Shown piece after piece: positions 6,490 through 34,750 of a stretch of DNA of 34,750 bases. The notes under the pieces were generated by a model. It saw nothing but the letters and a program-made list of their open reading frames with translations, made no database searches and had not been told where the DNA came from. This stretch comes from Rhodothermales bacterium. GTDB taxonomy: Bacteria > Bacteroidota > Rhodothermia > Rhodothermales > UBA10348. Both the position numbers and the translations under genes were made by a program. The stretch's first letter is position 1. Every line of letters begins with the position of its first letter. Location: NCBI GenBank assembly GCA_040221055.1, contig JAVJVN010000008.1, positions 1-34,750 on the forward strand. Reading direction: 5' to 3'.

Positions 6490-6493
6490 AGTG

Positions 6494-7919: not shown

Positions 7920-8063
7920 GTACAATGGACACATTTTTGGTCTACTCACTTTGATGAACACCTCGAGCGAGGTACCCCCGCCTTGAAGGCCTATTCGGGA
8001 TCTACGCCGAACCTCCTGCCGTTCTATCTCGAGCCCCATCGAACCAGTAAGTATGTTACCACC

Positions 8064-9331: not shown

Positions 9332-9336
9332 ATAGA

Positions 9337-10470: not shown

Positions 10471-10485
10471 TACGATAGTCTTTCT

Positions 10486-17624: not shown

Positions 17625-17727
17625 GGGCGCGGATTGGGGGATTGACGGGCCTCCATCTCCCATGGAAGGGCGCCCCCCACAATGAACGCTGGAGATGGCC
17701 GACCGGAAATCCCCGCAATCCGCGCCC
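17625..17727. repeat. 103-base imperfect palindrome in a gene-free gap
   Basis: GGGCGCGGATTGGGGGATT at 17625-17643 is mirrored by AATCCCCGCAATCCGCGCCC at 17708-17727. Further in, CCATCTCC pairs with GGAGATGG. The arms are about 40 bases each with a few mismatches. The 562-base gap between the PIN remnant and the kinase (17276-17837) contains the repeat cluster, the terminator and this palindrome. Open frames crossing it on both strands show no protein-like sequence. Confidence 0.7.
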
Positions 17728-17837
17728 AACCAGCCCGGACCTTCCCGACCAAACCAGAGCGCACTCGCGCATCCGGGACGCCCATTTTTTGTAGGTCTTG
17801 GATGGTACATTGCGGGATTCAGCACCCAGCGCATCGT

Positions 17838-20831
17838 ATGGCATCCATGATCGGAACTTCGTTTTCCCACTATACGATTACGGCCGAGCTCGGGCGCGGG
17901 GGCATGGGGGTGGTGTATCGCGCCACCGATGTGAAGCTGGGGCGGTAGGTGGCGCTCAAGTTCCTGGCGGCGCATCTGACGCACGATGCCATGGCCAAGG
18001 AGCGCTTCGTACGGGAGGCGCGGGCGGCGGCGGTCCTGAGGCACGATGCGGTCTGCGCCATCCACGACGTGCAGGAAACGGACGATGGCCAGGTGTTCAT
18101 TGTCATGCCGTATTACGAGGGGCGGACGCTGAAGGAGGTGCTGGCGGAGGGGCCGGTGCCCGAGGCGCGCGCGTTCGACATCGTGGCGCAGGTGGCGGCC
18201 GGGCTGCAAGCGGCCCACGAGAAGGGGATGGTCCACCGGGACATCAAGCCGGCCAACATCCTCTTGACCCCGGACGACCGCGTCAAGATCCTGGATTTCG
18301 GGCTGGCCAAGCGCGACGGGGACCTGGACCTGACGCAGTCCAGCAGCACGGTGGGCACCATGGCGTACATGAGCCCCGAGCAGGTGCAGAACCATGCGGT
18401 CGATGCCCGGAGCGACCTCTGGTCCCTGGGCGTGGTGTTTTTTGAGCTGTTGACGGGCGCGCGGCCATTCGGCGGCGCGTACGAGGCGGCGGTCGTTTAC
18501 GGCATTGTGAACCAGGACGTCGCGCTCGATGGCGTGCCGCCGCGCGCCCGTGGCATGGTCCGGAAACTACTCGCCAAGGATCCCGAGAGCCGCTATCTCA
18601 CGGCAAATGAGGTCATTGAGGCGTTGAGTGAGGCTCGCTCGACCACCGCACCGGCAGCGGCGCCCGCCCCGGCTCAGGGCTCCGGCGCCCGTTCGCCGGG
18701 CGCCCGCGTGCTCATGGGGGTGGCGGCGGCCGTGGCCATCGTCCTGACCCTCGGGTGGCTGGCCACGCGCGGAGGCGACGGCGCACCGGACACGCCGGCC
18801 GTCCTGGCGTCCAGCGGGTTTCCGACGGTCGCCGTGATGTACATCGAAAACAACACCGAACGGCAGCGCTTCGGGAATGTCATCCAGGACATGCTGGCAC
18901 GCAACCTGGGGCAGGTGGACAGCCTGCAGGTCATCAGCAACCAGCGCATGAAGGACATCCTCCGACAGGAAATCGGGGAGGGGCAGGAGGCCATCGATGC
19001 CGCGACGGCGACGGCCGTTGCGAGACAGGCGGGCATCCAGACCATGATCATCGGGTCGGTGGTGCAGTTCGGCGCCCAGTATGTGTTCGAGGTGGAGTTG
19101 ACGGATGTCGCGACGGGCGCCATCATCGATGCGGTCTCGGTCACGGCGGCCGATGAGTCCGAGGTCATGGCGGCGGTCAACGAGTTGACCATGGGGATCC
19201 TGCAGGGGTCGGGGAAGCTCGGCGGTCGGGAAGGCGGATTGGTCCGTATCCAGGACGTGTCCACGAACAACCTTACGGCCTACGAACTGTTCGAGGTGGC
19301 CGAGGATCACATGAACCACTGGCGTTTTGCCCAGGCGCAGCAAAGCTATGAGCAGGCCATTGAGCGGGATTCCACGTTCGTGGGGGCCTACATCGGTGCG
19401 GCCGCGGCATCGTCCGTGTTCGGTATTTCGCCCTTGGCCGACAATTCGGCCCGCATCGAGTTCCTGGAACGGGCGGCCCGGCATGTCCGGCATGCAACGC
19501 CCCTCGAGCGCGACCAATTAGCGTTTTTACGGAACATGTCCAATTCCGACTTGGCCGAGGCATCTGCGGAGGCCATGCGACTGGCCGACAAGTACCCGTC
19601 AGAGAAATCGCTTCAGTTTCAGGCGGCCCTTATTGCGGACGATTCCGCCAAGGTCCACTACTACGATCGGCTGTTCGATCTGGACCCGGGTTATGCCCTG
19701 GGCTACAACATGCAGGCCTACGACGCCGTGCGTCGGCTCGAGTTCGATGAGGCGGAATCCAGCGTACGCCGCTACCGCGCGCTGCAGCCCGACGTGCTGA
19801 ATACAATGGATTCGGCGTGGGAGGTGCTCACGGGTTCAGGCCGCGCGGACAAGGCCGTGGCGCTTCTGTCCGATGCGCTGGCTGGCGGGGAAGATCCGGC
19901 CAATGTGTACTGGCGTCGCATGTACTCGTATGCCATTCAGGGCGACACGCTTCAGGCATGGGCCGATTGGCAGCGCTACGTCGATGTCCTGGAGACCAAG
20001 GAGCCCCTGGCTTCCTACCGCGCCTCCCATCTGGCGCTGCTCTTCGGCCAGTGGGAACGCGCACGCGTACTCTCGGCGGCCTACCTCCGGGAGACCCGCC
20101 GTTCCTCTGACGACGCCGCTCTTCTGCGCGCATTACGCAACCATGCAGCCATCCTTCATGCCGTAGGGCGTCATGGGGAGGCCGAGGCCCTGCTTGACGA
20201 AAGCGTGGATATTTCGCGGACGGCACGGTTCTGGGGTGCGTTCAACCCGGTGCCTGTCGTCCGGGCATTTGACAACGTACTGGGATACGCGTTATCCGGC
20301 GATACCACGGCAGCCCGCCGCTGGCTTGCGACCCTTCAGGAAGCGGCCTCGGCGCCGGAAGCAGATGGACGGCAGCGGGTTATGGTCGAAGTCGCCACGC
20401 TTGCCGTGTCCTTGAACGACCTGTCCGTTCTGCGAGAGTCAATGGACGGCCCCATGAGACGATTGACAAACATGTTTCCAACATTGGCAGACGCCCAATC
20501 GCGGCTTCATGCGCTCGACGGGCGTGTCGAGCTGGCCCGCCGGTCCGCCGTGCTGGTTTCGCACAACGTGGCCAGTCGGGCCTTCGACCTGAGCCCCTAC
20601 AGCACGTTTTTCATCTACAGTCCGCTGGCCACGTATCGCCTGGGCCTCGCCCTTGAGGAGCGCGGCGATCGCGCCGACACGCCGTCCGCCCGGAACGCTG
20701 CGCTGGACGCAGCCGAGGCCGCCTACCGCGCGGCCCTTGCGCAATGGACCTCCACCGGCGCCACCTTCCGGTATGTGGCGGACGCGCGGGAGCGCCTGCT
20801 CAACGTCGAAACCCGCCGAAATGCCCCATGA
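17838..20831 (+). CDS. Membrane Ser/Thr protein kinase with CsgG/FlgO-like and TPR-like regions, interrupted by in-frame TAG
   Basis: Reading from ATG 17838 (or 17847) gives 36 codons ending with the glycine loop [24 protein letters not shown] follows at 17946-17948, and then in the same frame [10 protein letters not shown] with the ATP-binding Lys (K41 counting the stop as residue 37). The rest is intact: [11 protein letters not shown] (133-143), ILDFGLAK (about 151-158), MAYMSPEQ, a membrane helix at about 289-310, a domain resembling CsgG/FlgO N-termini ([20 protein letters not shown], about 330-455) and about 540 residues of helical TPR-like repeats. A GTG at 17949 directly after the TAG would give 960 residues but no glycine loop. 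The usual sequence would be R-x-V-A-L-K, so one base change (for example CAG to TAG) explains the stop. The product would sense outside the cytoplasm through the C-terminal part. It is convergent with the next gene, overlapping by 32 bases. Confidence 0.88.
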
Positions 20832-21398: not shown

Positions 21399-22682
21399 GT
21401 GGTACTTGCACTCATCTTTCTGCTGGCGCTCCAAGCGGTCCCGATGAACAGTGCTGTTCTGGTTGAAAGCTTGGGAAATGACCAGTTTCGTGCACGGGTG
21501 GAGCAAGGAAATACGACTCCTGTCCGTGATCAGTGGGGGTACGTGACCAGGCCGGCGCTCGATGGAGACATGGACCTGATTACTCGTGCTGTTGTCCTTT
21601 CCGTGAACGAGGCCGACATCAGAGTCAAGACGATTAGGGATGGAATGCCAGCGCGCGCCGGGGACATTCTGGTTTTCAATGCAGGTGTCGTGGTATTCGA
21701 CCCCAGTCCGGCATCGGCTCGACTGGAGCTGTCGGGCCCGGCATCGCGAACCGTAACGGGCCGATCCCAATTCATTGTGCCAGCGGGCCCATACACAGTT
21801 CGAGTAACAGCCCCCGGGTATCTGGCGCATTCCGGGCGTCTGACTATCGACGCAAACCGGATTCACAATTTACCGTCATCCCTGCAGCGGAGAACGTGGA
21901 CTCCTGCCCTGCGGTGCTCCGACGGCAACTGCTCCATTTCGCTTCGGGGTGGGCAGCGGCTTCCCCTGGTAACCATGCCTGACGGGTCATTTGTACCGGG
22001 TGATTGGCGGAACACAGGTGCAACTAATACACGACCGGCCAGGCGCGTGCAATTGAAGGGTTTCAGGATAGGCGCCACTGAAGTCACGGTCGGGCAATTC
22101 AGACGGTTCGTGGAGGAGACCGGTCACGTGACAGCCGTGGAGGTCCAGGGTTTTGGATTCACCAAATCGGCAGATGGCAAGACGGTGCGTCGCGAAGGAA
22201 TATCCTGGAAGGAGCCGGGTTTTCCACAAAGCGATGACCATCCTGTTGTCCTCGTTACGAAGAACGATGCCATGCAATTCGCCGACTGGATAGGCGCACG
22301 CTTGCCCACAGTGGCAGAATGGGAGTATGCGGCCCGCAATGGAGGCGGGCAAGTCATCTACCCCTGGGGAGACCAATTGGCATCCAATACCGCCAACTTT
22401 GCGGACCGTACGTCCGGATTTGCGAATGCTGCATCCAACTTGACAGACGGTCAACAATACACGGCCGCCGTGCGAACGTATCCGGGCTCGAGTGCAGGAC
22501 TGTTCGATATGGCCGGCAATGTGTCCGAGTGGTGTCTCAACCCGGGGACAGGCGGAAAGGGCTTGATCCGGGGAGGCAGTTGGGCGGAGGAAACCCGGTT
22601 CATGCGCACAACCACCAGCAATGAGGTCGCCAATGAAAATGTGGCCACGACTTGGATCGGATTCCGGGTGGTAATGGAATGA
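21399..22682 (+). CDS. Secreted PEGA plus formylglycine-generating-enzyme-like (SUMF1 fold) protein
   Basis: First gene of the ten-gene operon, 427 residues from GTG 21399, the first usable start after an in-frame TGA. Residues 1-18 form a signal peptide. About 95-155 form a PEGA-like beta domain (PAGPYTVRVTAPGYLAHSG). About 185-427 are the FGE-sulfatase fold: GFRIGATEVTVGQFRRFVEE, ARLPTVAEWEYAAR, YPWGDQL, AGLFDMAGNVSEW, IRGGSWAEETR, WIGFRVV. In true formylglycine-generating enzymes two Cys follow the RGGS motif. Here that stretch has none (SWAEETRFMRTT), so sulfatase activation is unlikely. Such paralogues serve as binding or structural domains. It overlaps the next gene by four bases. Its position at the head of a kinase/VWA/FHA/PP2C operon suggests a periplasmic or surface role in that system. 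Confidence 0.85.
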   Translation: MVLALIFLLALQAVPMNSAVLVESLGNDQFRARVEQGNTTPVRDQWGYVTRPALDGDMDLITRAVVLSVNEADIRVKTIRDGMPARAGDILVFNAGVVVFDPSPASARLELSGPASRTVTGRSQFIVPAGPYTVRVTAPGYLAHSGRLTIDANRIHNLPSSLQRRTWTPALRCSDGNCSISLRGGQRLPLVTMPDGSFVPGDWRNTGATNTRPARRVQLKGFRIGATEVTVGQFRRFVEETGHVTAVEVQGFGFTKSADGKTVRREGISWKEPGFPQSDDHPVVLVTKNDAMQFADWIGARLPTVAEWEYAARNGGGQVIYPWGDQLASNTANFADRTSGFANAASNLTDGQQYTAAVRTYPGSSAGLFDMAGNVSEWCLNPGTGGKGLIRGGSWAEETRFMRTTTSNEVANENVATTWIGFRVVME

Positions 22683-25600
22683 GCAAATCAGCCAAAATTG
22701 TTTCCCGGTTTGTTTTTTCAGCAACCTTGCTGCTCTCCGTGGGCCTGACCGAAGCCGATGCACAACAGGCTGGAATCACGGTCATCACGCATGGATTGAG
22801 CCCGTCCAAGATCACAAGCGGAAACGCTTTGGACAAGAATAAGCAGCTTCCCTGGATGCTTGAAATGGCGGTGGCCATCGGTGAAAATGCCAAGTCTCGA
22901 GGATTCACGTATTCCATCCGCATGTATGATGAGCGGTCCTTTCACTTTTCGCCGCATCACCCCCTGCTGTGCGATGAATTGCTCATGGGCGCAGATGTAG
23001 CGCTTGAAAGGGACGCAGGGGGCACGTGCAATGCGCACGACACGGCAGCAGATGAGGTCATCCTCCTGTACCCATGGATTGAGGCAAGCAATGAGAATGC
23101 CACGGGCATGTCCTCTGCGGAAGCAGCCGCACTGGCAAACGCTCTTGTACTCGGCTACTACAGGGGGGAGTACAATATTTCGCAGCCCATGCATTTCATT
23201 GGACACTCACGCGGCACGGTAGTCAACAGTCAAGCCGTTCGGCGACTGCTTAACTATGACGTGGGTGCGAATATCGATCACGTGACCTTTCTGGATCCTC
23301 ATGATTGGGGATATCTGTGTGGTTGGGATGATTTTGACTTGAACGGTGATATCGGACTGGGCGACAGGGCATACCCGCCGCGGTCCTACGCGAACAGGCA
23401 GGACGAAAGAAACAGGGGGGTAATCGCGTGGCGGGGAAATACCTATTACGACACCTACTATCAGATAAATAATCTTAAGCGGGGCGTTCAATCAGATCTG
23501 ATTACCACACAGGATCAAGGGACCGCTGGTTGCCTGTCTTCGACGGCGCTGGATCTCATCAAGAGAGCGGGGTTGGCATATGTTTCGGGTCGCCGCCCGT
23601 CTTTGGCGGTATTGAGCTATCTGCAAAGAGAGGGGTTCACATATGCGTTGAATGGCCGCCCCGTACAGGCCACTGTCAACCATGATTGGACGCACGAGGA
23701 ATACAAGGAGAAGGAGAAGGGTAGATCCAGGAATCTACCCATGAGTCATATAGGCGTCGTTCACCGCTACATTGCGTCCATTTCCGATGCTTCCATTCCG
23801 GACGGATATCGGCATTCCAGACTTGGAGGAGGTAGTGGTCGCAAGCAGCCCCAGAACGGGCCACGGGCTGATTGGCGCTTCGGTAGCTCCGAAATCGGCC
23901 CTCAGTGGGTTGAAAATGGTTCGTTCGAATATGGCTACGAAAACGTATCTGTCACGTCCTGGATTCCTGGATGGGGCAGGCATTTCAGCCAAGGATTGGT
24001 GACCGCGAACGTACGGAACGGTGAGATATGGCTCCGTACGGACGTAAGATCCGCATTGACGAGTGACCTCGTGTATGTACCCCAAACGGCCACCGAGTTG
24101 ACGTTCGACATTCGAACACCACCGTACAGTGACGTCGATGTCGCCGTTGAATTCCAGGTCTTTGAGGGTTCAGGGAGGTTCGACTACAGCTCATTCGTTC
24201 CGGCCAGCGGGTACGGTGCCAATGTCAACCCGTCCGGTGGTGTTGGAGGGCTTACCCGAATCAACAACATCGATGTGTCGGGACTTCAGGGAAAAGTGGT
24301 TCGGATTCGCATTTCGGTTGCGAAGGGTGTGCTTCCCGTTACCGTCGTACTCGACAACGTTCGCATCCTGACCGGAACGCCAACCCTGCCAACCCCCTCG
24401 ACGGCAGAGGTCGTCTACATCATCGACTCTTCGGGCAGCATGCGACAGAACGACCCGCGGAATGCACGAACGGCCTCCGTCCAGGTGGCCGCACGTCTGC
24501 TTCCCGGGAATACGTCGCTGGCGGTTGTTGACTTCGACACGCAAGTCCAGACCATCGTGCCACCAACGCTTTCGCAAGGGGCCGAGGAGGTCATACAACA
24601 AGCCATGCGTCGCGTAAATGCAGAGGGTGGGACGGACATCGGTCGGGCGCTGGCCGGTGCCACGGGTGTGATGGCTCCGGGTATTGGGCGTGTGGTCCTG
24701 CTGACCGACGGCCAGGGTTCGTACAACGATGAGGCGCTGGCATACCGTCAGAATGGATGGTGCATTGATACGGTCGGGCTGGGATCGGACGTGAACAGTG
24801 CACTGCTTTCACGCATTTCGGCGGATTCGGGATGTGGAACGTATCGCCACGCGAGTCGCGCATTCGAACTGACTGGCGCGTTCGCCGAATGGGGGGTAAA
24901 GGATGGACGGTCGACCATGCTTGCACGCACGGAAGCCATGGTCGCTGCAGGCACGACGGAGGTCATGGAGTTTACGGCGGACGGAACCGTATCCGACGTA
25001 TCGCTCCTGGTGTCCAGTGAGGTTGGAATCAATCGAATCCAGGTACAGGATGCCAACGGAAGTCCGATTGAAACCTGGTCCCCGCAGAGGGCCGAAATAG
25101 ATCAGCGGTCCCTTGCGTTGTCCGGGAGCGGCGCGTATCGGGTCCTTGTCGAAATGATCACCGGATCATCGGGAACGGGGCGTTTCCTGGGGCGCGTATT
25201 GGCTGTGTCCAGTATTCGAACAGAGCTCAGCATAGCCGGGCAGGTCGTCAGACCCCGAATGGCTTTGCCCATGAATTTCCGATTTTCCGGGGAAGCTCGC
25301 ATGCCTGATGTCCTGGACGTGACAACACAGATCTATCGGGACGGTGTCAATGTTCAGGAAGCAGCATCACGTCAACTCAGGGTTCGCTCGCAACAACTCT
25401 CTACGTCCGTCCAATTGCCGGACGAAGAGGGGATATACGATGTCGTAATGCATATCCAGGGAGCGGCCCCGGAGTTCAACGATTTCAAGCGGATAGTCCC
25501 GCTGACGGTCACGGTTTCGCGTAATGCGGAAATCGGATTTCCGGTGGTAGAGGTCGTGCGCGGAGACGAGATCTTGGTATCGGATGCCGATATGTTTGGT

Positions 25601-25774
25601 CTCCATGTCGGTCAGCCCGTGGTGTTCAGGCGATCAGACGGCAGGATTGTTGGTGAGGGCATCGTCAGGGGACGGGTCGGTCCGCTGGCCCGAGTCTTTT
25701 TGGCTCGGCGGATGACACGGATTGATGTCGGTATGACAGTGGATTTCGACACGAACTATTTCTCGGGTCGATGA
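22679..25774 (+). CDS. Secreted giant with alpha/beta-hydrolase-like and VWA domains
   Basis: From ATG 22679, which overlaps the upstream stop (ATGA), the protein has 1031 residues. Domain order: signal peptide (about 1-28); lipase-like alpha/beta-hydrolase (about 32-240) with ITVITHGLSPS and the nucleophile elbow GHSRG at 175-179 (S177); a jelly-roll-like beta domain (about 415-565, from WVENGSFEYGY); a VWA domain (about 575-745) with the MIDAS motif DSSGS (D583) and GGTDIGRALAGA and VVLLTDGQGSY; then beta-rich domains to the end. VWA domains bind a partner through a metal ion; the hydrolase-like part could cleave an ester or act as a binder. No transmembrane helix is seen apart from the signal peptide. 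Overlap with the kinase start at 25771 suggests tight co-translation. Confidence 0.82.
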   Translation: MSKSAKIVSRFVFSATLLLSVGLTEADAQQAGITVITHGLSPSKITSGNALDKNKQLPWMLEMAVAIGENAKSRGFTYSIRMYDERSFHFSPHHPLLCDELLMGADVALERDAGGTCNAHDTAADEVILLYPWIEASNENATGMSSAEAAALANALVLGYYRGEYNISQPMHFIGHSRGTVVNSQAVRRLLNYDVGANIDHVTFLDPHDWGYLCGWDDFDLNGDIGLGDRAYPPRSYANRQDERNRGVIAWRGNTYYDTYYQINNLKRGVQSDLITTQDQGTAGCLSSTALDLIKRAGLAYVSGRRPSLAVLSYLQREGFTYALNGRPVQATVNHDWTHEEYKEKEKGRSRNLPMSHIGVVHRYIASISDASIPDGYRHSRLGGGSGRKQPQNGPRADWRFGSSEIGPQWVENGSFEYGYENVSVTSWIPGWGRHFSQGLVTANVRNGEIWLRTDVRSALTSDLVYVPQTATELTFDIRTPPYSDVDVAVEFQVFEGSGRFDYSSFVPASGYGANVNPSGGVGGLTRINNIDVSGLQGKVVRIRISVAKGVLPVTVVLDNVRILTGTPTLPTPSTAEVVYIIDSSGSMRQNDPRNARTASVQVAARLLPGNTSLAVVDFDTQVQTIVPPTLSQGAEEVIQQAMRRVNAEGGTDIGRALAGATGVMAPGIGRVVLLTDGQGSYNDEALAYRQNGWCIDTVGLGSDVNSALLSRISADSGCGTYRHASRAFELTGAFAEWGVKDGRSTMLARTEAMVAAGTTEVMEFTADGTVSDVSLLVSSEVGINRIQVQDANGSPIETWSPQRAEIDQRSLALSGSGAYRVLVEMITGSSGTGRFLGRVLAVSSIRTELSIAGQVVRPRMALPMNFRFSGEARMPDVLDVTTQIYRDGVNVQEAASRQLRVRSQQLSTSVQLPDEEGIYDVVMHIQGAAPEFNDFKRIVPLTVTVSRNAEIGFPVVEVVRGDEILVSDADMFGLHVGQPVVFRRSDGRIVGEGIVRGRVGPLARVFLARRMTRIDVGMTVDFDTNYFSGR

Positions 25775-27225
25775 TGCGGATTGCAGCGATCGGGTTCTTT
25801 TGCTTCTGTTTGGTTGCACCCGCAGCCGGACAGCAGATCCGTACGTTGATTGTGCACGGGACGGCTGCCGGCGATACCGTCGTGCTCTCTTCGGCTGGCG
25901 TGATTGTGGAATCCGTGGTGACCGACCCGGATGGTATTGCCTCCTTTTATCATCTGCTTCGGCCGGGAACGTACGAACTCGGCGTCCTGACGCCAACGGG
26001 CACAAAGACCAACCATACACTGGATGTGAATGAGGTGTCTGTTTTTACCCGAGTGGTCCGTCTGTCAGCGCGAGCCAATGATTCTGGCGTTGATGACACC
26101 CCCACTATGGCGTTGCCATCGGACAAGGAGCCTGCAGCAGGGCTGAGTGCTGGAGGGGGAGGGGGTGGCGGTCGATCCTCGTCAGACAGAACGGAATTCC
26201 TGTGGCCGATTCTGGCCGTTTTCATCATCGTGTTGGGAGGCACAGCGTTTGTACTGAGTCTCAAGCGACGCGCGCCGAGCCTGGAACCGGAAGCGATCGA
26301 AGACTACGTAGTACCCGTTGCCGAGATCTCATTGGATTTGCCGACAGAGGCGGAGGAGGTTGACCAAGAATGGGCCGTTCACAACCCTGCCGCAGCTGGG
26401 TATCGAATCATCCGGCAGGTGGCCGTAGGGGGCATGGCCACCATCTATGAGGCGGAGCATACGCGGTGGGGCACCTGCATCTTGAAAGTATTGCTGCCGT
26501 CACTGGAAGGGGATGAAGACCTGGTAGTCAAGTTCAAGCAAGAGGGGGCAGCCATTGCTCGCATCAATGAGGCGTCGGGCTCCGAGACAAAAGTGGTGAA
26601 AGTATTCGAATACGGGGAACTGGCGGATTCGGGGCGATCATTCATCTGCATGGAAAAACTGCAAGGATTGGGCCTGGAGCGCCTTCTTGCGCAAAACGGG
26701 GCGTTGCCCTTTTGCGATGCGTCTCAGTTGCTCAAGCTCATTGCTACAGCACTCCGGGAGGCGCATGAGATAGGGATCACCCATCGTGATGTGAAGCCTG
26801 ACAACGTAATGGTGGTTTCAACAGACCCACTCGATGTACGTCTGATAGATTTCGGCGTGGCGCGCCACGAGTTCATGTCAGCGCGGACGCTCACCGGCAC
26901 GCTCGTCGGTTCACCCCGATTCATGAGTCCCGAGCAGGCCAACAGTAAACCCGTTGACCACCGGACAGATATCTATTCTCTCGGTGTTCTGGCGTGGACA
27001 TTGAGTATGGGCAGCCCCCCGTTCAACAATCAGAATCCGCTGGTTGTGCTCAAACAGCATGTTGAGGAGGTCGTACCGGACATTGTCGGTCCCGATGTCC
27101 CGGAAGCTTACGTGGATTTGGTGGCCTCCATGTTGGAGAAGGATCCAATCCAGCGTCCGGCTCTGATGTCGGATGTCATAACAGAGATAGACCGGATTCG
27201 GTCTACGAGCAATTGCCCACAGTAA
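25771..27225 (+). CDS. Transmembrane Ser/Thr protein kinase with N-terminal periplasmic domain
   Basis: The 484-residue protein starts at ATG 25771 (or the adjacent 25774). A signal sequence (1-20) is followed by a beta-rich domain of about 80 residues (22-100, ending a Thr/Gly-rich linker), a membrane helix (about 143-165), and a C-terminal cytoplasmic kinase domain (about 210-480). Catalytic features are complete: QVAVGGMATIYEA, K239 in CILKVL, THRDVKPDN (D340), IDFGVAR (D360), FMSPEQA. If the N-terminal segment is cleaved, the protein has its sensor outside and kinase inside. This domain order is the reverse of PknB-type kinases, where the kinase is N-terminal. It is the likely writer of the system, with the FHA protein 16 bases downstream as reader and the PP2C as eraser. 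Confidence 0.92.
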   Translation: MMRIAAIGFFCFCLVAPAAGQQIRTLIVHGTAAGDTVVLSSAGVIVESVVTDPDGIASFYHLLRPGTYELGVLTPTGTKTNHTLDVNEVSVFTRVVRLSARANDSGVDDTPTMALPSDKEPAAGLSAGGGGGGGRSSSDRTEFLWPILAVFIIVLGGTAFVLSLKRRAPSLEPEAIEDYVVPVAEISLDLPTEAEEVDQEWAVHNPAAAGYRIIRQVAVGGMATIYEAEHTRWGTCILKVLLPSLEGDEDLVVKFKQEGAAIARINEASGSETKVVKVFEYGELADSGRSFICMEKLQGLGLERLLAQNGALPFCDASQLLKLIATALREAHEIGITHRDVKPDNVMVVSTDPLDVRLIDFGVARHEFMSARTLTGTLVGSPRFMSPEQANSKPVDHRTDIYSLGVLAWTLSMGSPPFNNQNPLVVLKQHVEEVVPDIVGPDVPEAYVDLVASMLEKDPIQRPALMSDVITEIDRIRSTSNCPQ

Positions 27226-27241
27226 CGCAACAAGGAAAACA

Positions 27242-28228
27242 ATGCGCAACTACCTACCCACACTGTTCATGATCGTCACCCTTGCCCTGTGCGGGGCTGC
27301 ATTTGCACCGGATTCCGCAGCACAGACGTGTTACATAACCGAGCCGCAGCGTTTCTCCTTGATTGAGGATTGTCTTGACGAATACGAAAGCGAATTCGTC
27401 AAATTGAATGGTTGGGCGAGAACAGTCCATGACATCGGATCGCCGACGTTCGAATATTTCGTACTCACAGACGAGTTTGGGAACACGGTTACGGTTCGAA
27501 CGACCAAGGGATTGAAGATCGGTCGACAGTACGTCGTTGAGGGAATTGTAAACATGTTCACATTGGACAATGGATTGGATATTCCCGTCATCCACGAGTC
27601 CACGCGATATTGGGTTATGCGGCCGTACCTGATTTGGGCCGGCGTTGGTGTTTTGGCCCTGTTGGTAGTCGGGTTTGTGTTCTATCAAACCAAGAGCGGC
27701 AGTAAAGGACGGCGATCACGCGTACCAGCATCGGCTGCCGCACCCGCTCCAGTTCGAGAGGTCAAGCCTTCCCCGACAATTGGGCCAGAAGATCCGACGG
27801 TCAAACTGGATGGCGATCTCGTACGAGGGTCGGCATTCGAGATGTACGTTCCGCAGAAAACCCTCAAGATCCTGGGTCAACTTGAGTTTGTCGGTGGTCC
27901 CGACAAAGGGAAGGAAATACCGTTGTTGGTTCCCGCGTCGGAAAGTGGTCGCTCCGGTGCCGGTCACGAGTTTCATATTGGCCGTGAAAAGGGACAACCA
28001 TTCGAATCCATCATGCTTTCGGCACCTACCATCAGCAGAAAGCAGGCCAAGTTGGCATTCGTGAATGGGCGATTCGTATTGACCAACTACGCCTCTGTCA
28101 ACAAGAATCCTACGCTCGTGAACGGTCAGCCCATGGATGTGGGTGGCCAGGTAGCCATCAGTGATGGCGACGTGATCACGTTTGGCGAAATAGAGGTCAG
28201 GCTGACGTACGCGAAGACCAACGTATAG
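27242..28228 (+). CDS. Transmembrane FHA-domain protein
   Basis: The 328-residue protein has a signal peptide (about 1-27), a periplasmic domain of about 100 residues with features of an OB-like fold (KLNGWARTVHDIG, YVVEGIVNMFTLDNG), a membrane helix (about 130-149), a basic and proline-rich linker, and a cytoplasmic C-terminal FHA domain (about 213-325). FHA signatures are FHIGRE (phosphate-contact R), TISRKQAKLAF (S and R of the pThr pocket), LTNYASVNKNPTLVNG and DGDVITFG. The linker contains D-P-T-V-K-L-D with T186, a plausible kinase target and FHA ligand. The topology mirrors the kinase, suggesting that both couple an outside domain to an inside phospho-threonine signal. Confidence 0.9.
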   Translation: MRNYLPTLFMIVTLALCGAAFAPDSAAQTCYITEPQRFSLIEDCLDEYESEFVKLNGWARTVHDIGSPTFEYFVLTDEFGNTVTVRTTKGLKIGRQYVVEGIVNMFTLDNGLDIPVIHESTRYWVMRPYLIWAGVGVLALLVVGFVFYQTKSGSKGRRSRVPASAAAPAPVREVKPSPTIGPEDPTVKLDGDLVRGSAFEMYVPQKTLKILGQLEFVGGPDKGKEIPLLVPASESGRSGAGHEFHIGREKGQPFESIMLSAPTISRKQAKLAFVNGRFVLTNYASVNKNPTLVNGQPMDVGGQVAISDGDVITFGEIEVRLTYAKTNV

Positions 28229-28233
28229 TCGGA

Positions 28234-29301
28234 ATGCAGAACGCGCTGACAACGTCCATTCTCTCGAGGCAAGGTCGCAGGTCCTCCAACGAGGATGCGG
28301 CATTTGCCAGGGTTCATCCACAAGGAAACGCAGCAATTCTGGCTGTAGCCGACGGGATGGGTGGTGCTGCGTGCGGAGAAATCGCATCGGAAATTGCCAT
28401 CGAGGAAGTGGAGGCTTTCTGGCGGTCCTTGCCTGCCGAGCCGAACCACGCAACAGACGTCGCGCGGGAAGACCTGATAGATCTTTTCTTTCGAATTGAT
28501 CGACGGATTGCCGCCTATTCGCGCGAAAATGAGGAAGCCAGCGGAATGGGAACGACCCTCTCATTGGCGTTCCTTGTCGGGCATCGCCTTTATGTAGCGC
28601 ACATCGGTGATTCCAGGATCTGTGTGATTACCAGCGACGGGCGTTGTGTACAACTGACCGATGATCACTCCATGGTGGCAGAAGCCGTCCGTGAAGGACG
28701 CATGACGGAGGACGAAGCCCGGACCAGTCCGTATCGACATGCGCTGTCCCGCGTACTTGATGGAGGTGGAGACTGGAAACCGGATGTTCGGGTGTACGAT
28801 GACTGGGATCCGGAGTGGGTCCTGTTGGCCAGCAGCGATGGATTTCACGGCGTGATCGACCATGCGTCCACCGCACATCTGGTGCAGATGTACCGAGACG
28901 AGCCGGAGCTTACGGGGGTCCTGGTCGACGCAGCACTGGAAGCCGGCAGCAATGACAACGTTTCCGTCGCGTGCTGTGTGTACGGTATCGTCCGGCCGGC
29001 CAAGACCGACCGGTACGATGGAGATGCCACCGTGCGACTGGACGATTTCTACAGGAAAAGAAAGGCCAGGCGCACTCGATGGGTGATTATTCTGGTGGCT
29101 GTGGTGCTGGGCATCGCGGCTGTTGTGTCGGAACGGGACCGGATTGTGCGGCTCGTTCCATCCAGAACTGCTTCGGATACGACGCAGACTGTTCAGGATA
29201 CGAGTGCCGTCAACGAGGAGCGCAGATTGTTGGAAGTGCTGGGAGAATCAATGGATTACAAGGAGACCGACGTGAGCGCAGATACAACACAGACACCGTA
29301 G
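28234..29301 (+). CDS. Membrane-anchored PP2C-type protein phosphatase
   Basis: The 355-residue protein has an N-terminal PP2C domain (about 8-250). Motifs are SNEDA (D21, metal), VADGMGG (D40, metal), GMGTTLSLAF, HIGDSRIC, LTDDHSMV, LLASSDGFHGVI and SNDNVSVACC (D241, metal). A basic linker (RKRKARR) precedes one membrane helix (about 283-299), and a tail of about 55 residues lies beyond it, presumably periplasmic. The linker has ATVRLDDFY (T266), similar to the FHA protein's PTVKLDGD. The tail has RRLLEVLGES, similar to part of the lipoprotein at 30717. It should remove phosphates placed by the neighbouring kinase. It lies five bases after the FHA gene and eight before the next VWA gene. Confidence 0.93.
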   Translation: MQNALTTSILSRQGRRSSNEDAAFARVHPQGNAAILAVADGMGGAACGEIASEIAIEEVEAFWRSLPAEPNHATDVAREDLIDLFFRIDRRIAAYSRENEEASGMGTTLSLAFLVGHRLYVAHIGDSRICVITSDGRCVQLTDDHSMVAEAVREGRMTEDEARTSPYRHALSRVLDGGGDWKPDVRVYDDWDPEWVLLASSDGFHGVIDHASTAHLVQMYRDEPELTGVLVDAALEAGSNDNVSVACCVYGIVRPAKTDRYDGDATVRLDDFYRKRKARRTRWVIILVAVVLGIAAVVSERDRIVRLVPSRTASDTTQTVQDTSAVNEERRLLEVLGESMDYKETDVSADTTQTP

Positions 29302-29309
29302 GCGGGCGC

Positions 29310-30185
29310 ATGACAGTGGGTCGGTTCAATGGGTTCGGAATCATAGGTGTGATCTTGTTTACGTTGGTGGTTGACTCCAACGTTGCAGCAGCCCGCCAGC
29401 CGGATATTTCCGTTCTCGGGGTGGATCGATTGGAGAAACGCGTCCGTGTCCGGTTGTCGAATTTGGGGGCGTTCCGGTTCAGTGGCGTCCCGGATGCACA
29501 TCCCATCCACGGCAAAGTGCTTGTGGATGGCGCGCCGGTTCCGGTGATCGTCCGGAACGTAAAGAGTACATCCAAGAAGGTGCTCGTGGTTTTGCTTCTG
29601 GACGCCAGTCAAAGTGTTCGCGAGGACAAACATCGTGTTAAGGTTGATTCGCTCCAATCTCGACTGGCCGGCGTGGATGCGGAATTGTCGTTCCAGTTAT
29701 GCCGCTTTGCGGAACGAATGGTCTGCTCGACGCCTCCTGGGCCGGCTGCGTTCTGGGCGCGTCCCGTTGGTTCCATCACGGACTTGTACGGAGCAATCCA
29801 TGCGGCTGTCGACCGCAATGCTTTGCCCCGGCCCGACTTGACGGTCGTGCTGTCGGACGGGTGGCACACCGGTCCACTGGATGAGGAGAAGACGCGGGTC
29901 GTTTCGCGGTTGACCGAGGAGGGGACGCTCTATTACTGGACCCCACCCAGTGAAGTACTGGTTGCCCATCACATAAAGCAGACCGGCGGTTCCCCCAATT
30001 TTGCCTCTGGGCCCGCAGACCTGAACCGAGCTATCGAGGACCTGCTCGTTCGGAGGCATCATGAGTATGAAATCGATTTTCCAATAGTGGGGATGAAGTG
30101 GGGGGCATCCTTCCATCGACTTGATTTTCGTGAGGATACCGGGGGCGTCCAGACAATCCGGTCAAGGCGGCTGATTATCCGATAG
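29310..30185 (+). CDS. Secreted VWA-domain protein
   Basis: From ATG 29310, eight bases after the phosphatase stop, the protein has 291 residues. The frame is open further upstream, but only inside the PP2C gene in another frame. The signal peptide is about 1-28. A beta-rich part (about 32-85) leads into a VWA domain with the MIDAS motif DASQS (D98, S100, S102) in VLLLDASQSVRED. LTVVLSDGWHTG follows at about 185. It ends in a basic strand (IRSRRLIIR). VWA domains bind protein partners through a divalent metal. With the hydrolase-VWA protein this is the second exported VWA of the operon. VWA, PP2C and kinase also occur together in TerY-P triads, but there the VWA is cytoplasmic. Confidence 0.88.
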   Translation: MTVGRFNGFGIIGVILFTLVVDSNVAAARQPDISVLGVDRLEKRVRVRLSNLGAFRFSGVPDAHPIHGKVLVDGAPVPVIVRNVKSTSKKVLVVLLLDASQSVREDKHRVKVDSLQSRLAGVDAELSFQLCRFAERMVCSTPPGPAAFWARPVGSITDLYGAIHAAVDRNALPRPDLTVVLSDGWHTGPLDEEKTRVVSRLTEEGTLYYWTPPSEVLVAHHIKQTGGSPNFASGPADLNRAIEDLLVRRHHEYEIDFPIVGMKWGASFHRLDFREDTGGVQTIRSRRLIIR

Positions 30186-30255
30186 GATTTTCCGCGACGC
30201 CTGGCAAAGGCAAGGACGACTGCATGTGTTTACCCACGATCCAATCCGACAGACC

Positions 30256-30714
30256 ATGCATTTCATCCTCAAACACGCCCGCTGGTTTGGTATGGCCGGG
30301 CTGCTTTTCCTTTGCGGCTGCGGAGCATCATCGGCCACATTGGAATCTTCAGACCCATTGGAGGGCGTGGCTGCCACGATAGGTGTCATCCTTGGAGCCG
30401 AAGGACAGCCGGCGTACGGCGCCGAGATTGAGGGTGCTGGAATGCTTCTTGAGACGGACTCCCTGGCCGAAGGAGCAATTGCCGTCATTTATGAGTGGCA
30501 GATTCCGGAGGACGGCGAGTACACGTTCACGGCAAGGGGTGAAAACTTCCGGGAAGTAGGGACAGCAGTTGCCAAGGTAGAGGGGGGCAAGTTTGTTGTC
30601 CGTGCGATGATGATTGAAATCGGTACGACTTTGTATTTCCAGACCGTCGGAGCTGACTCATTGAAAGCAGTTCCGAATGCCTACGGCCCCGGCAAAGTTA
30701 AAGTGGAAGGTTGA
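30256..30714 (+). CDS. Small predicted lipoprotein
   Basis: From ATG 30256 the protein has 152 residues. A GTG at 30226 in the same frame would add ten residues before the basic start of the signal sequence. The lipobox is LCG-C (C22) after FGMAGLLFL, so the mature protein would be lipid-anchored. The mature part is mostly beta-strand (DGEYTFTARGENFREVGTAV), like a small Ig-like or Cna-type binding domain. No enzyme motif is seen. It follows a 70-base gap after the VWA gene and its TGA lies two bases before the next ATG. Function unknown; likely a structural partner of the signalling complex. Confidence 0.75.
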   Translation: MHFILKHARWFGMAGLLFLCGCGASSATLESSDPLEGVAATIGVILGAEGQPAYGAEIEGAGMLLETDSLAEGAIAVIYEWQIPEDGEYTFTARGENFREVGTAVAKVEGGKFVVRAMMIEIGTTLYFQTVGADSLKAVPNAYGPGKVKVEG

Positions 30715-30716
30715 TT

Positions 30717-31850
30717 ATGAGACATTCCACTACAAACATCAGCCGCATGTGGTTGCCTGGCATTCTGATCACGTGCTTGGTATTGAGTTCATGCAGCAAT
30801 TCCGATAAAAGACCGGACCTGACTGACTCTGGTGAAAACCAAGACCGTCAACTGAGCGAGGTCCTGGGCGAGCACTATGCGTCCGGCAGGGAAGAAGATG
30901 ACCGCCCCATTGCTGACAAGCCGGCCGAAGACGGGTCGGTAGAACCGGAACCTGTCATAATATCCCCACCTCCGGAGCAAGAGGTTGTGGAGGTCATCCT
31001 TGGTTCGACAGAAGTGGAAGAGAGCAGCGGTCCTGATTCCTCAAAGCCTGTTCGCAGTGATGAAGTGTCGGATGTTGTCGAGGAAGAGGATCCCAAGGCT
31101 GAAGTTCGGATATCGGCCGATTCAGATGTCAGAATTACATTCAAGAACGCACAAACAGGGGCTGAATACGACGTATCGGCTGGAACGGTTGAGCTTGATC
31201 CAGGCGTGTATTCCTGGGTTGCCCGGAAACCCGGCTACCTGACGGCAACATCGAACCCCGATCGTCCTGTACGTGTCGAGCCAGGAGCGAGGTTGAATCT
31301 ACCCCCGATAGTGTTGCAAGAACAGTTGGACGACGACGGCTCAACTGGACTTTCCGCTGATGTGGAAAATGTGCTTAAGCAGGCCCCTCCCCCTGATTCC
31401 CAGGGTAAAACAGAATGGATAAGGCAATTGTACTCCATCGGTGACGCGAAAATGGCGGCCCGTGATTTTGAAACAGCCCGGCGGGCGTTCTGGAAAGTCC
31501 GTGGAGGCTCAGAAGACGAATACTCCGCGAGCTTGAACCTGGCCGTTCTGTATTTCCTGGTATCACAGCCCGATTCCGTTGATTACTACCTCAATGAAGT
31601 GCGGGGGCTCATGCCGAACATTCCTGTCAGCGGAGGGAATCGGGCCCAATATCGGGCACGCATCGATTACTACCAGGGTCAGTCCGCGTATCTCAGATAT
31701 AAAGCAACCATGGATCCCAACTATGCCACGATGACACTCACCAATTTTGCTTCGTTCCGAGCCAATCTGGAAGATGAATTCCGTGCAAGCGAGGAGTTTA
31801 CCAGCATGCTTGACACCATTGTCCAGTTGGAAAAAGAACTTCAGCGATAA
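30717..31850 (+). CDS. Predicted lipoprotein with acidic linker, PEGA-like and TPR-like parts
   Basis: From ATG 30717 (GGAAGG six bases upstream) the protein has 377 residues. Lipobox LVLSS-C places the lipid on C26. A long acidic, proline-rich linker (about 27-125) follows, then a small PEGA-like beta domain (about 127-200, LDPGVYSWVARKPGYLTAT) and helical TPR-like repeats (about 228-375). The linker contains DRQLSEVLGEHY at about 43-54, close to RRLLEVLGES in the periplasmic tail of the PP2C gene product. Long linkers like this can let a lipoprotein reach across the periplasm. Function unknown; probably an adaptor of the same complex. Confidence 0.8.
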   Translation: MRHSTTNISRMWLPGILITCLVLSSCSNSDKRPDLTDSGENQDRQLSEVLGEHYASGREEDDRPIADKPAEDGSVEPEPVIISPPPEQEVVEVILGSTEVEESSGPDSSKPVRSDEVSDVVEEEDPKAEVRISADSDVRITFKNAQTGAEYDVSAGTVELDPGVYSWVARKPGYLTATSNPDRPVRVEPGARLNLPPIVLQEQLDDDGSTGLSADVENVLKQAPPPDSQGKTEWIRQLYSIGDAKMAARDFETARRAFWKVRGGSEDEYSASLNLAVLYFLVSQPDSVDYYLNEVRGLMPNIPVSGGNRAQYRARIDYYQGQSAYLRYKATMDPNYATMTLTNFASFRANLEDEFRASEEFTSMLDTIVQLEKELQR

Positions 31851-31867
31851 TAACAAGGTCAGTTCCT

Positions 31868-33631
31868 ATGCTAATCAGATCTGTATACAGATGGTGTGGA
31901 TTCCTGTTACTGGTAATTGTTTGTACAAGTACCAGTAGGCAAAGTCATGCGCAGGAGCCCGTCGGTCAGGTCTCTGCTCCTGCCATGGCGCCAGATGATC
32001 CGTCCCTGATTGCATTTGCGCGCCAAACCGTGGACGCCAAGTCCATCGTGTTGCGCTTGCCGTCCGGTACCGAGTTGGATCTGGACATTGACGACGGACA
32101 GCAAGTCCCATCTGCTGAAGAGTCCGTATTCGGAGGACTCTTTGAGACCATGGAAGGTGTGAATCAGCGTCGCTATGACAGTTCGTTCAGATGGCGGCCG
32201 GTCGTCGATCCGGAAGGAGTGCGCTGGTTCGCGTTTGTATCCATCACGAAAGAAACGGGATCCAAACAGGCATACGTAAACGGACTATCAGCTGAGGATG
32301 CACTGATCCTCCCCCGTGCGATTCCTCTTCCTGCCCCTGGCCCCGTCTCGGAATTGGACTGGTCGGCTGACGGGAGTCGACTCGTCGCCACCATGGGTGT
32401 ACGGTCTGCTGCAGGTCAGCCGACCGTCGAGTTATTTGTGAGCAACCCTTTTGATATTGACCACCTGACAGTGACAGGCGGATTCCTTGAATGGCATCGG
32501 ATTACAAATAATGATCAATATGAGTCCTCTCCGGAATGGAATAAAGGGGATAAATGGAACAAGGACTATCTCGTATATCGCGCTGAAAACAGGGCGGACG
32601 GAGAACGTGCCATCTATGTTTTACTAGATGTGGGAAACATGGTGTCAGCTGACATTTCACCGGTGAAAATATCGGGCGAGTTGGATGGCTACGCACTCTA
32701 TAAACCGTCTTGGTCTCCATCCGGCAGGTATGTATCCGCCTATGTATCTGCCAGGCGACTCGTGGAAACCACGGAGGACAGTCAGCTGCAGGATATTGTG
32801 TTGTTCGATGTTCTTACCCGGGTGGACAGAGACGGCCGGAGAGAGATTGCAGGAGGGCGCTTATTGAAGAACGCACTCAATGCGGATCGCGTCGTGAAAA
32901 ACGTGGTCCCGTCGGAGGGCTCCGGCCCGGCATGGATTCCATCAGAGGATGGACTCGCCATCGTCTATGTGGATCGAACGCCCGGTTTTCCAGTGAAAAT
33001 CGCGAATGTGTCCGCTTTTCTTGCCAATGAACTGGACGAGTCAAGACTGGCGACGCTGGCTGCCTTTGAACAGGCAAGCCAGAGCAAGGAAGTAGCTGTC
33101 GCCATGGGGAGCGGGAGGCTTCATTTTGCCTTCAGTTCTCAAGTAGAAGGCATTCCGACGTTGACGCTCAGGCAGATACCACTGCCCGGCGCCCGGTTGC
33201 AATACTATCAAGAATTGGATCCCATGACGGCAGTCAAACAATCATTGATGTTTCCGGGTCGCGGTCAATCCTACAAGGGCGAAGACAATAAGGCGGAGAT
33301 ATTCAAGTACACGGGATATGCACTCGCGGCGGCGAACGGATTGTTGCTTGCGCGATACACGTACGATTGGGCAAAGTGTGAACGGGCATCTTCCTGCAGC
33401 GGCGGAATACGATCACAAAGAAATGCGTCTAGGAGTCAACTGACAATAATGTTTGGAATGACCACTGCGTTCTATGCATACAATGTATACGATGCCTATT
33501 CGGGCTTTCCCATCTTCCGACGAATGACCGGAGGTGAACTGGCAGGTAGAAATCGTAAAATGGACGTAAAAATGGCTTTTCTTCCCGGCCCGGGAGCGAA
33601 TCCGACCGCGCATTTATCCATTCGGTTTTAA
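31868..33631 (+). CDS. Exported PD40-like propeller protein with DUF5683-like membrane domain
   Basis: The 587-residue protein has a signal peptide (about 1-28, ending near SHAQE). The first 440 residues contain repeated blade motifs of the TolB/PD40 type (LDWSADGSRLVATMG near 165; YKPSWSPSGRYVSAYVS near 276; PAWIPSEDGLAIVYVD near 350). The C-terminal part (about 450-587) carries SLMFPGRGQSYKGEDNKAEI and two hydrophobic segments, resembling DUF5683 proteins of Bacteroidota. The combination suggests a beta-propeller sensor tethered to a membrane. It starts 17 bases after the lipoprotein gene and ends three bases before the last operon gene. Exact partners are unknown. Confidence 0.75.
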   Translation: MLIRSVYRWCGFLLLVIVCTSTSRQSHAQEPVGQVSAPAMAPDDPSLIAFARQTVDAKSIVLRLPSGTELDLDIDDGQQVPSAEESVFGGLFETMEGVNQRRYDSSFRWRPVVDPEGVRWFAFVSITKETGSKQAYVNGLSAEDALILPRAIPLPAPGPVSELDWSADGSRLVATMGVRSAAGQPTVELFVSNPFDIDHLTVTGGFLEWHRITNNDQYESSPEWNKGDKWNKDYLVYRAENRADGERAIYVLLDVGNMVSADISPVKISGELDGYALYKPSWSPSGRYVSAYVSARRLVETTEDSQLQDIVLFDVLTRVDRDGRREIAGGRLLKNALNADRVVKNVVPSEGSGPAWIPSEDGLAIVYVDRTPGFPVKIANVSAFLANELDESRLATLAAFEQASQSKEVAVAMGSGRLHFAFSSQVEGIPTLTLRQIPLPGARLQYYQELDPMTAVKQSLMFPGRGQSYKGEDNKAEIFKYTGYALAAANGLLLARYTYDWAKCERASSCSGGIRSQRNASRSQLTIMFGMTTAFYAYNVYDAYSGFPIFRRMTGGELAGRNRKMDVKMAFLPGPGANPTAHLSIRF

Positions 33632-33634
33632 CTC

Positions 33635-34615
33635 ATGATGCTCGTCAGGAAAACGTTTGCTGCCTTTACCATCGCCGTCCTGTGTATGAGCACAGCACTG
33701 GATGCGTCCGCCCAGCAAGGGCAGCGAGACGGCATCATGGAAGATTGGTTGTACGCCAACCAGGAATTTGATATCGCACGGCTTACAAACATGCTGTATG
33801 CCGATTATCTCGATATCCTGGTAGAAGCCGCTGTGATTTCGCGGCAGGACGCGGATAGATACGCTGATGTGATTCCCGGTATTGGATCCAACCACCGGCT
33901 TTCGAATTGGTGTGTCACGAAGGATGCGCTTGAGGTGTTCGCGCCAACCTGCTCATTGTTAACGGGCAAAGTCGAGGTGTCCGTTGTCCCGGATGCGGAT
34001 GATCTTTATGCTGCCGTTGTGGATCGTGGAGATCCCACTCCGATACCCATCTATTCGATCGGCTTGTTCGAGGTGCGCGGGCAGAAACAGTTGATGAAGA
34101 CAGCTATGCCTCCACCAGGTCCTCCGCTCGGAGATTTCTTGAAGGTGCAGCTGCTGGACCCTGCGACACTGGACGAAGACTTGGAGTCGTCATTACAAGC
34201 GAGGAATGCCGATATCGTGTCCCTGACGGCTGCTGTGGTTGCTTGTCATGGGACAGACGCGGGAAGGGAGATGGTATCGCGATGGATCCAAACAGGAAAA
34301 GCAAATCGATACCTGTCCGGACGCAACAATGTGAGAGGCCACATTCGTGTTGCACTCTTCGCACGAGCCGCATCTTGCTCGGGGCGCCCTGGCGAAGCGC
34401 TCAAGTGGCTGAAGTCTGTGTATGATGTGAGCCTGTATCGGGATGCGACACGATACGGAACCGAATTCAGGGTCATCCTGGCAACATCTTTGCTCGAGCA
34501 AGGGGCGTGGGAAGACCGTAAGCATGCCTTGGAGATCATTACGCTTGTGGCTGAGCAGGATCCACGTCTTGTCCCTGCTGAATACATGCTCTCCATACTG
34601 AACACTCCCTCCTAA
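33635..34615 (+). CDS. Exported protein of unknown function, helical repeats likely
   Basis: The 326-residue protein (ATG 33635 or 33638) starts with a signal peptide ending near SAQQ (about 1-28). The mature protein has a helical N-part (about 35-90), a middle part with two Cys (NWCVTKDALEVFAPTCSLL) that could pair, a proline-rich turn (AMPPPGPPLGDF), and a C-terminal half of helix pairs (IRVALFARAASCSGRPGEAL, then RVILATSLLEQGAWEDRKHA) that look like TPR or SEL1-type repeats. No known family was recognised. It is the last gene of the operon. The 135 bases after it (34616-34750) hold only a short CCGGA/TCCGG inverted repeat and no gene. Confidence 0.75.
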   Translation: MMLVRKTFAAFTIAVLCMSTALDASAQQGQRDGIMEDWLYANQEFDIARLTNMLYADYLDILVEAAVISRQDADRYADVIPGIGSNHRLSNWCVTKDALEVFAPTCSLLTGKVEVSVVPDADDLYAAVVDRGDPTPIPIYSIGLFEVRGQKQLMKTAMPPPGPPLGDFLKVQLLDPATLDEDLESSLQARNADIVSLTAAVVACHGTDAGREMVSRWIQTGKANRYLSGRNNVRGHIRVALFARAASCSGRPGEALKWLKSVYDVSLYRDATRYGTEFRVILATSLLEQGAWEDRKHALEIITLVAEQDPRLVPAEYMLSILNTPS

Positions 34616-34750
34616 GCTGAGCGATTCGTATTTGTGACGTGTCCAATATCGCTGATTTGTCTGTGATGAACCACGCCCCGGACGTTCCGGTGGCTCAGAG
34701 CCGGGTCAGCGTCCGTCCTGGACCCTCTTTCGGGCTTGAGACAGACCGGT

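Follow-up and report, generated by a model that had tools for sequence, protein, structure and literature searches.

A kinase-FHA-phosphatase gene run that continues, across an IS-like insertion, into Opp-type transporter genes in a Rhodothermales bacterium

Ten plus-strand genes at positions 21399-34615 of contig JAVJVN010000008.1 (C8) from a Rhodothermales bacterium (assembly GCA_040221055.1) encode a Ser/Thr kinase, a forkhead-associated (FHA) protein, and a PP2C phosphatase among several putative envelope proteins. The window, that is, the whole stretch of DNA analyzed, spans 34,750 nucleotides of this contig. An earlier note on the window had treated the ten genes as a unit ending at 34615 and as a trans-envelope signaling system. 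Here, we describe them as the front part of a larger set whose remaining genes, on contig C11, encode an Opp-type ABC transporter and its substrate-binding protein (SBP). On balance, we favor the reading that the set forms an import or sensing system spanning the envelope, with the transporter under the control of reversible threonine phosphorylation. This reading draws on features read from sequence: which genes are present, how their order compares across loci, the catalytic residues, the predicted single helices, a break made by an insertion sequence (IS)-like element, and an extra domain in OppC.

An IS-like element separates the run from its transporter genes

The ten open reading frames (ORFs) are open and contiguous, and the overlaps or short gaps described earlier are present. 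With the longest ORF starts, and with gene 2 read from the ATG at 22679, the intervals from gene 1 to gene 10 are -4, -4, 16, 5, 8, 40, -4, 17, and 3 bases; the gap of 70 reported earlier results if gene 7 is started at a later ATG (30256). Contig C8 ends 135 bases after the stop codon of gene 10. The terminal 134 or 135 bases recur, with near-identical ends, at eight places, each precisely at a contig end (C8 itself and C1, C3, C7, C14, C15, C16, and C18), and a diverged inner copy (77%) is found at C1:54208-54331, with no obvious transposase detected by eye in 3 kb. Alignment of the eight ends showed that this IS-like repeat, whose left end occupies 34611-34750 on the plus strand, begins with CCTAAGCTGAGC at 34611. 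The stop codon of gene 10 (34613-34615) therefore lies inside the repeat and is supplied by it, so that the original operon did not stop at 34615.

The other side of the insertion was located on C11, where positions 1-139 constitute the right end of the element, an inverted form of the left-end sequence that agrees with it at 16 of the first 17 bases. The 5-bp sequence TCCCT precedes the repeat on C8 and follows C11:1-139, as a target duplication, and C8 is alone among the eight left ends in having this flank. When the C8 and C11 flanks are joined, gene 10 encodes 335 residues and its TGA overlaps the start of the SBP gene as ATGA, the type of junction also present between genes 1 and 2 and between genes 2 and 3; a 4-base overlap is likewise found at the gene 10-SBP position in genome G160. 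Judged from these ends and junctions, C8 and C11 are the two flanks of one insertion, the element landed between the two parts of the operon, and the intact unit comprised about 15 genes, of which the ten are the front part. The insertion probably lowers or uncouples expression of the transporter in the sequenced strain. Two other descriptions were considered and set aside. That the ten genes make up a whole unit is ruled out by the insertion and by the continuation on C11; C11 as a stray foreign contig is ruled out as well, as it carries the continuation and then runs into sequence of higher GC content.

The kinase, FHA, and phosphatase genes

Gene 3 (25771-27225, plus strand) encodes a predicted transmembrane Ser/Thr kinase (Pkinase, 3e-33), gene 4 (27242-28228, plus) a predicted transmembrane FHA protein with the FHA domain inside (FHA, 1.3e-10), and gene 5 (28234-29301, plus) a PP2C phosphatase (PP2C_2, 9.2e-17) with a C-terminal membrane helix and a putative outside tail. 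A hydropathy scan bore out the earlier statement that each has one membrane helix, at residues 146-164 of the kinase, 129-147 of the FHA protein, and 281-299 of the phosphatase. Residues expected of working domains are retained in the aligned relatives: K239, E258, HRD 338-340, and DFG 360-362 of the kinase are invariant in five of five rows, D21, D40, D202, and D241 of the phosphatase in four of four, and GR 247-248, SR 265-266, and N294 of the FHA protein in three of three. FHA domains usually have a His in the SRxH motif; all three rows have Gln at this position.

Kinase, FHA, and PP2C genes are clustered in four genomes of the class (this one, G160, G369, and G012), and FHA genes are scarce there: gene 4 is the sole FHA match of its genome at E <= 0.001, G160 has one match, G369 two, and G012 a single protein with two domains. 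One FHA gene lies within 8 kb of the SBP gene in each of G160, G012, and G369. With the gene 4 protein as the query in 60 genomes, its own included, the single other match was weak (G043, 9.4e-4); the FHA protein of G012 was missed, and none was found in plasmids. Matches of the run to PADLOC models were set aside, as they resemble generic kinase and PP2C models.

Just upstream of the run, a second Ser/Thr kinase with a long C-terminal part is encoded at 17682-20831 (plus strand); an in-frame stop at 17946-17948, immediately ahead of the VALK motif, interrupts it.

The Opp-type transporter and the extra domain of OppC

Downstream of the IS right end, C11:173-5547 encodes, in this order, an SBP, permease B (OppB), permease C (OppC), and two ATPases, followed by an ORF on the opposite strand. 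The composition is that of Opp/Dpp importers, with a family 5 SBP, two BPD_transp_1-type permeases, and two ATPases in one run. The SBP_bac_5 match, at the contig start (C11:395-1537), is the only one in the genome. Permease B scored 22.1 bits, below the Pfam cut-off of 26.4; its counterpart in G160 exceeds the cut-off. Below the NCBIfam cut-offs, the transporter proteins matched a mixture of nickel, opine, and peptide models.

A structure model of permease C (pLDDT 68.8, low in much of residues 1-101) matched E. coli OppC in its core (2e-8) and contained seven strands at residues 103-178, between the first helix and the OppC core; these gave weak matches to a cadherin and to adhesin fragments (E about 0.1). 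In the NCBIfam alignment, the core starts about 100 residues further into the protein than it does in E. coli OppC or DppC. As modeled, then, OppC carries an extra periplasmic domain, and this domain is weakly cadherin-like. For comparison, three plain OppC loci allowed the GTD motif to be located, and its distance from the start of the longest ORF was 58, 90, and 158 residues; eight further loci could not be measured.

At a threshold of 1e-20, permease C matched 18 of the 238 genomes of the class. The extra domain was aligned in four of them (this genome, G160, G012, and G031), the other 14 matching in the plain core only, and all four also have a long match to the propeller protein described below. 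The OppC query was built from the first three of these genomes, and G031 is thus the one independent find; the propeller query was built from all four. Permease C of G466 matched outside the extra domain, with a similar extra stretch visible in a five-row alignment, and that of G369 is cut at the contig end.

Other proteins encoded in the run

Genes 7 to 10 encode the putative outer parts of the system. Gene 7 (30226-30714, plus strand) encodes a small lipoprotein that matches an L058 protein at 3e-4, and gene 8 (30711-31850, plus) a lipoprotein recovered at 8.9e-15 by a hidden Markov model (HMM) from five other loci. Relatives of gene 8 carry PEGA and TPR parts (PEGA in the G160 relative); gene 8 itself had a weak TPR match below the Pfam cut-off. 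Gene 9 (31868-33631, plus) encodes a beta-propeller with a C-terminal helical, DUF5683-like part (DUF5683 below cut-off). Its model (mean pLDDT 71.6) shows the strand order of a propeller and long helices at the C-terminus, and the best PDB match was an S9 carboxypeptidase with a moderate TM-score (0.43/0.39); further PDB matches were to what we take to be propeller-bearing proteins. Gene 10 (33635-34610, plus), which the IS-like repeat interrupts close to the end, encodes an exported protein at the position held by TPR proteins in other loci.

The three remaining genes had no counterpart in the stretches searched at other loci (the contig of G369 starts 0.7 kb before its kinase, and genes further upstream are unseen there). 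Gene 1 (21399-22682, plus strand) encodes a PEGA-like piece and a SUMF1/formylglycine-generating enzyme (FGE)-like domain (FGE-sulfatase, 9.5e-51; PDB matches to FGE and PorK/GldK). The protein is perhaps exported, which is uncertain because its GTG start lacks a clear ribosome site and the N-terminus is not clearly charged. It is probably not an active FGE, since there is no Cys among its final 48 residues, where the active-site Cys would presumably fall. TagR, a component of the TagQRST module discussed below, is FGE-like, and we take gene 1 to resemble it. Gene 2 (22679-25774, plus) encodes a VWA domain with a DxSxS motif (1.5e-13) after an N-terminal part that matched nothing in Pfam or, by sequence, in the PDB; the label hydrolase-like refers to a GHSRG motif found by eye. 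Gene 6 (29310-30185, plus) encodes an exported VWA-like protein with DxSxS (VWA_CoxE, 3e-4, weak and below cut-off).

The domain list proposed earlier thus holds by Pfam for genes 1-5 (FGE-sulfatase, VWA, Pkinase, FHA, and PP2C), is matched below threshold for genes 6, 8, and 9, and has no Pfam domain behind it for gene 7 and nothing credible for gene 10. As to export signals, the hydropathy scan found N-terminal hydrophobic stretches in genes 1, 3, 4, 6, 9, and 10, and inspection by eye gave lipobox motifs in genes 7 and 8 and a signal sequence in gene 2.

Related loci in other genomes

Conserved loci were reached through relatives of the propeller protein. Used singly, a propeller query gave matches in 7 of 296 genomes, this one included, four of them only in part; a four-row alignment matched 232 of the 244 genomes of the class. 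Because propeller and DUF5683 pieces are so common, only long matches were used. A propeller stretch of more than 440 model positions was present in 12 of the 244, five of which are the conserved loci. Matches in the three congeners were weak (best, 4.9e-7), and SBP_bac_5 was absent from two of these and matched twice in the third.

The fullest locus is that of G160, from another family, where 12 genes on one contig encode kinase, FHA protein, PP2C, lipoprotein, PEGA/TPR lipoprotein, propeller, a protein at the TPR position, SBP, permease B, permease C, and two ATPases. G369, from a third family, repeats this order as far as the contig end in permease C. In G012, from another genus of the same family, a PEGA/TPR-like lipoprotein, the propeller, a 610-residue lipoprotein-like protein, and a TPR-position protein precede the SBP, both permeases, and two ATPases, and a divergent run adjoining the transporter set encodes an FHA protein, a 249-residue protein, PP2C, and kinase. 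In G031, from the same order, one contig encodes kinase, two lipoproteins, propeller, and an immunoglobulin (Ig)-repeat protein to its end, and a second starts in Ig repeats and continues with SBP, B, C, and two ATPases; we infer that the two contigs join. G466, taken to belong to another phylum because the set searched for its phylum comprised 82 genomes and the phylum of this bacterium has more than 296, has lipoproteins, propeller, and Ig protein to the end of one contig and Ig protein, TPR protein, SBP, B, C, and two ATPases on another. Across these loci, the putative propeller and PEGA/TPR lipoprotein are the core of the conserved set. Of the outside binding once attributed to VWA, propeller, and PEGA proteins, the latter two agree with this core, whereas the VWA, SUMF1-like, and hydrolase-VWA proteins were found here only. 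Neighborhood conservation was partial, with the order kept in G160 and G369 and the kinase-FHA-phosphatase triad parted from the transporter in G031 and G466.

To gauge specificity, leave-one-out HMMs built from other loci only were run on the 266 ORFs of the window and C11:1-15000. The expected gene ranked first in 10 of 12 positional groups. The kinase group HMM gave gene 3 at 5.3e-68 and the window's other kinase at 4.8e-61, and the two ATPase group HMMs cross-matched each other's gene.

Proposed mechanism and alternative readings

Under the reading that we favor, the lipoproteins of genes 7 and 8, the propeller of gene 9, the gene 10 protein, and the SBP would form a periplasmic assembly that docks through the extra domain of OppC and hands a ligand to OppBC. 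The outside domains of the kinase, FHA protein, and PP2C would read the state of this assembly. The kinase would then phosphorylate a cytoplasmic site, on itself, PP2C, the ATPases, or another partner; the FHA protein would bind the phosphothreonine at the membrane and either switch transport or report inward; and PP2C would reset the phosphorylation. The coupling of signaling and transport in this scheme is inferred solely from gene order and topology. The trans-envelope signaling envisaged in the earlier note would persist in it, the triad being linked in four genomes with its residues kept, but as the signaling half of a larger Opp set.

Several observations weigh against this reading. Genes 7 and 10 owe their assignment more to position than to sequence: their group HMMs found nothing among the 266 ORFs, and for gene 10 no sequence likeness to the TPR-position proteins of other loci was found. 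No NCBIfam cut-off was reached by the SBP, permeases, or ATPases among the rows shown, which bears on the substrate. The remaining long-propeller genomes, G392 and six of family f55, have other neighbors in 3.8 to 24 kb, with no match to any signaling or transporter query; in f55, these neighbors are often sugar-nucleotide genes by eye. In G012, the triad stands on the opposite strand, and its FHA protein (L013 1756-3732) combines two FHA domains with a trypsin-like one, so that the reader differs between loci; as it was missed by the gene 4 query and is of different build, it may be an independent recruit. In G031, none of 12 FHA matches lies on the locus contigs, and no PP2C was found there. 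G466 has no FHA match in its genome, for which no completeness is given, and a histidine kinase adjoins its transporter (L096 4434-8388, with FG-GAP and PAS matches), together with a response-regulator-like gene identified by eye. As G031 and G466 keep the transporter with no adjoining FHA gene, the triad is not obligatory. Since transporter and scaffold persist in both, the transport module looks older, with the triad as a regulatory addition to it.

One known pathway, TagQRST-PpkA-PppA-Fha1 of the H1-type VI secretion system (T6SS), offers the closest set of parts for an alternative in which the ABC transporter and envelope proteins sense envelope disturbance and switch the kinase, the output being another machine or metabolism. 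TagQRST is described as a sensing module made up of an ABC transporter, the periplasmic protein TagR, and a lipoprotein of the outer membrane (PMC10482370, PMC6082577, PMC6657622) that senses and activates PpkA (PMC10482370, PMC6657622), and as restricted to Pseudomonas (PMC6082577). Both sets combine a lipoprotein, an FGE-like protein, an ABC transporter, a membrane kinase with an outside domain, PP2C, and FHA. They differ in that the transporter here is Opp-type and has an SBP (a comparison with TagS/TagT by gene type), in that the FHA and PP2C proteins are predicted to be membrane proteins, in the added propeller and PEGA/TPR lipoproteins, and in the absence of VWA from the kinase. Moreover, the T6SS sheath gene VipB/TssC was found in none of the genomes of this bacterium, G160, G012, G369 (78% complete), and G392 (89% complete), and G466, lacking any FHA match, keeps the full Opp set and SBP with the envelope genes, which suggests that transport is older. 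By analogy, the gene set may work like this pathway, yet it is not a member. A mainly sensory role for the transporter is, in our estimate, unlikely, although it deserves to be kept in view.

A second alternative looks to nutrient signaling. GarA and OdhI of Actinobacteria are small soluble FHA regulators, and their GlnH-GlnX-PknG route, in which GlnX is a membrane receptor with four helices, is not known to include a transporter permease and uses a soluble kinase and FHA protein. Applied here, the SBP would report a nutrient to the kinase, FHA-bound phosphorylation would tune metabolism, and the transporter would be the supply line. The presence of SBP, kinase, and FHA protein in one set agrees with this, as does the GlnH-GlnX-PknG-GarA/OdhI precedent, where an SBP, a kinase, and an FHA protein act in a single transmembrane pathway (PMC6069109, PMC9769921). 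By prediction, the FHA protein of the present run sits in the membrane and has an outside domain, in contrast to a small soluble regulator, and we regard such a route as rather unlikely.

The signaling operon might instead stand beside the transporter operon by chance of position. The separability of triad and transporter in G031 and G466 and the divergent strands in G012 point this way. Against it, the genes form one closely spaced run in this genome (once the insertion is taken out), G160, and G369, representing three families, and FHA and SBP genes are rare in all three; chance neighborhood therefore appears improbable.

A T6SS or Ter-type stress system, which shares kinase, PP2C, FHA, and VWA parts with the run, is very improbable, as the absence of VipB from this genome contradicts its T6SS half, the FHA protein reached 29.1 bits against the 120.25-bit cut-off of the T6SS FHA model, and the VWA genes were not found in other loci. 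Membership in the T6SS threonine phosphorylation pathway was rejected on the same VipB result, which also agrees with the earlier remark that no type VI genes are visible. The run shares with that pathway a PP2C and an FHA reader adjoining the kinase; PpkA of P. aeruginosa has an outside VWA domain (PMC3224232), and gene 3 had no VWA match in Pfam. Compared with the TerY-P triad, the VWA proteins here look exported; Ter genes were not searched for. As a separate observation, G031 has two VipB places (C170:5751-6653 and C5:12130-12942), and one of its FHA genes lies about 0.5 kb from the second.

Two further comparisons concern transport itself. The set resembles Opp/Dpp importers in its SBP_bac_5 protein, BPD_transp_1-type permeases, paired ATPases, and OppC core, and departs from them in the roughly 100 residues before that core and in the triad and envelope proteins of the run. 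Rv1747-PknF of Mycobacterium tuberculosis also joins an ABC transporter and a Ser/Thr kinase in one operon. There, Rv1747 bears FHA domains (PMC5549992) and is positively modulated by PknF (PMC3908365); unlike here, FHA is fused to a suggested exporter in a two-gene operon. In the literature, as judged by titles and the beginnings of abstracts and mostly outside subscription papers, no such gene set and no kinase-FHA-controlled Opp transporter was found described.

A bolder version of the import reading, to which we give tentative and less than even credence, is that of a new trans-envelope machine: an Opp importer whose OppC bears a cadherin-like receptor domain, whose outer scaffold is built from the propeller and PEGA/TPR lipoproteins, and whose gating is done by the membrane kinase-FHA-phosphatase triad. 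This triad would replace the histidine kinase found beside the module of the other phylum. The activators of bacterial Ser/Thr kinases are named an outstanding question (PMC6069109); here, ligand, sensor, and possible phospho-targets would be encoded together, and the defined transporter and SBP are accompanied by a kinase, a reader, and a phosphatase, all three with parts predicted to lie outside. If true, this would be a case in which a kinase, an FHA protein, and a phosphatase control an envelope machine in the absence of type VI secretion.

Surroundings and base composition

GC content at third codon positions (GC3) was 0.51-0.65 in the 15 genes, against 0.75 and 0.81 for two genes flanking them. 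Lower GC is also seen elsewhere in the genome (window 1-12000 at 0.42-0.52; contig-end pieces at 0.46-0.60), and gain by transfer is for this reason not supported by GC3. Terminator and promoter scans remained near the level of shuffled sequence. Elsewhere in the window, a lower-GC polysaccharide cluster at 648-12714 encodes glycosyltransferases, asparagine synthase, a sugar transferase, a UDP-sugar dehydrogenase, and an epimerase, and includes an integrase-core protein at 648-2516.

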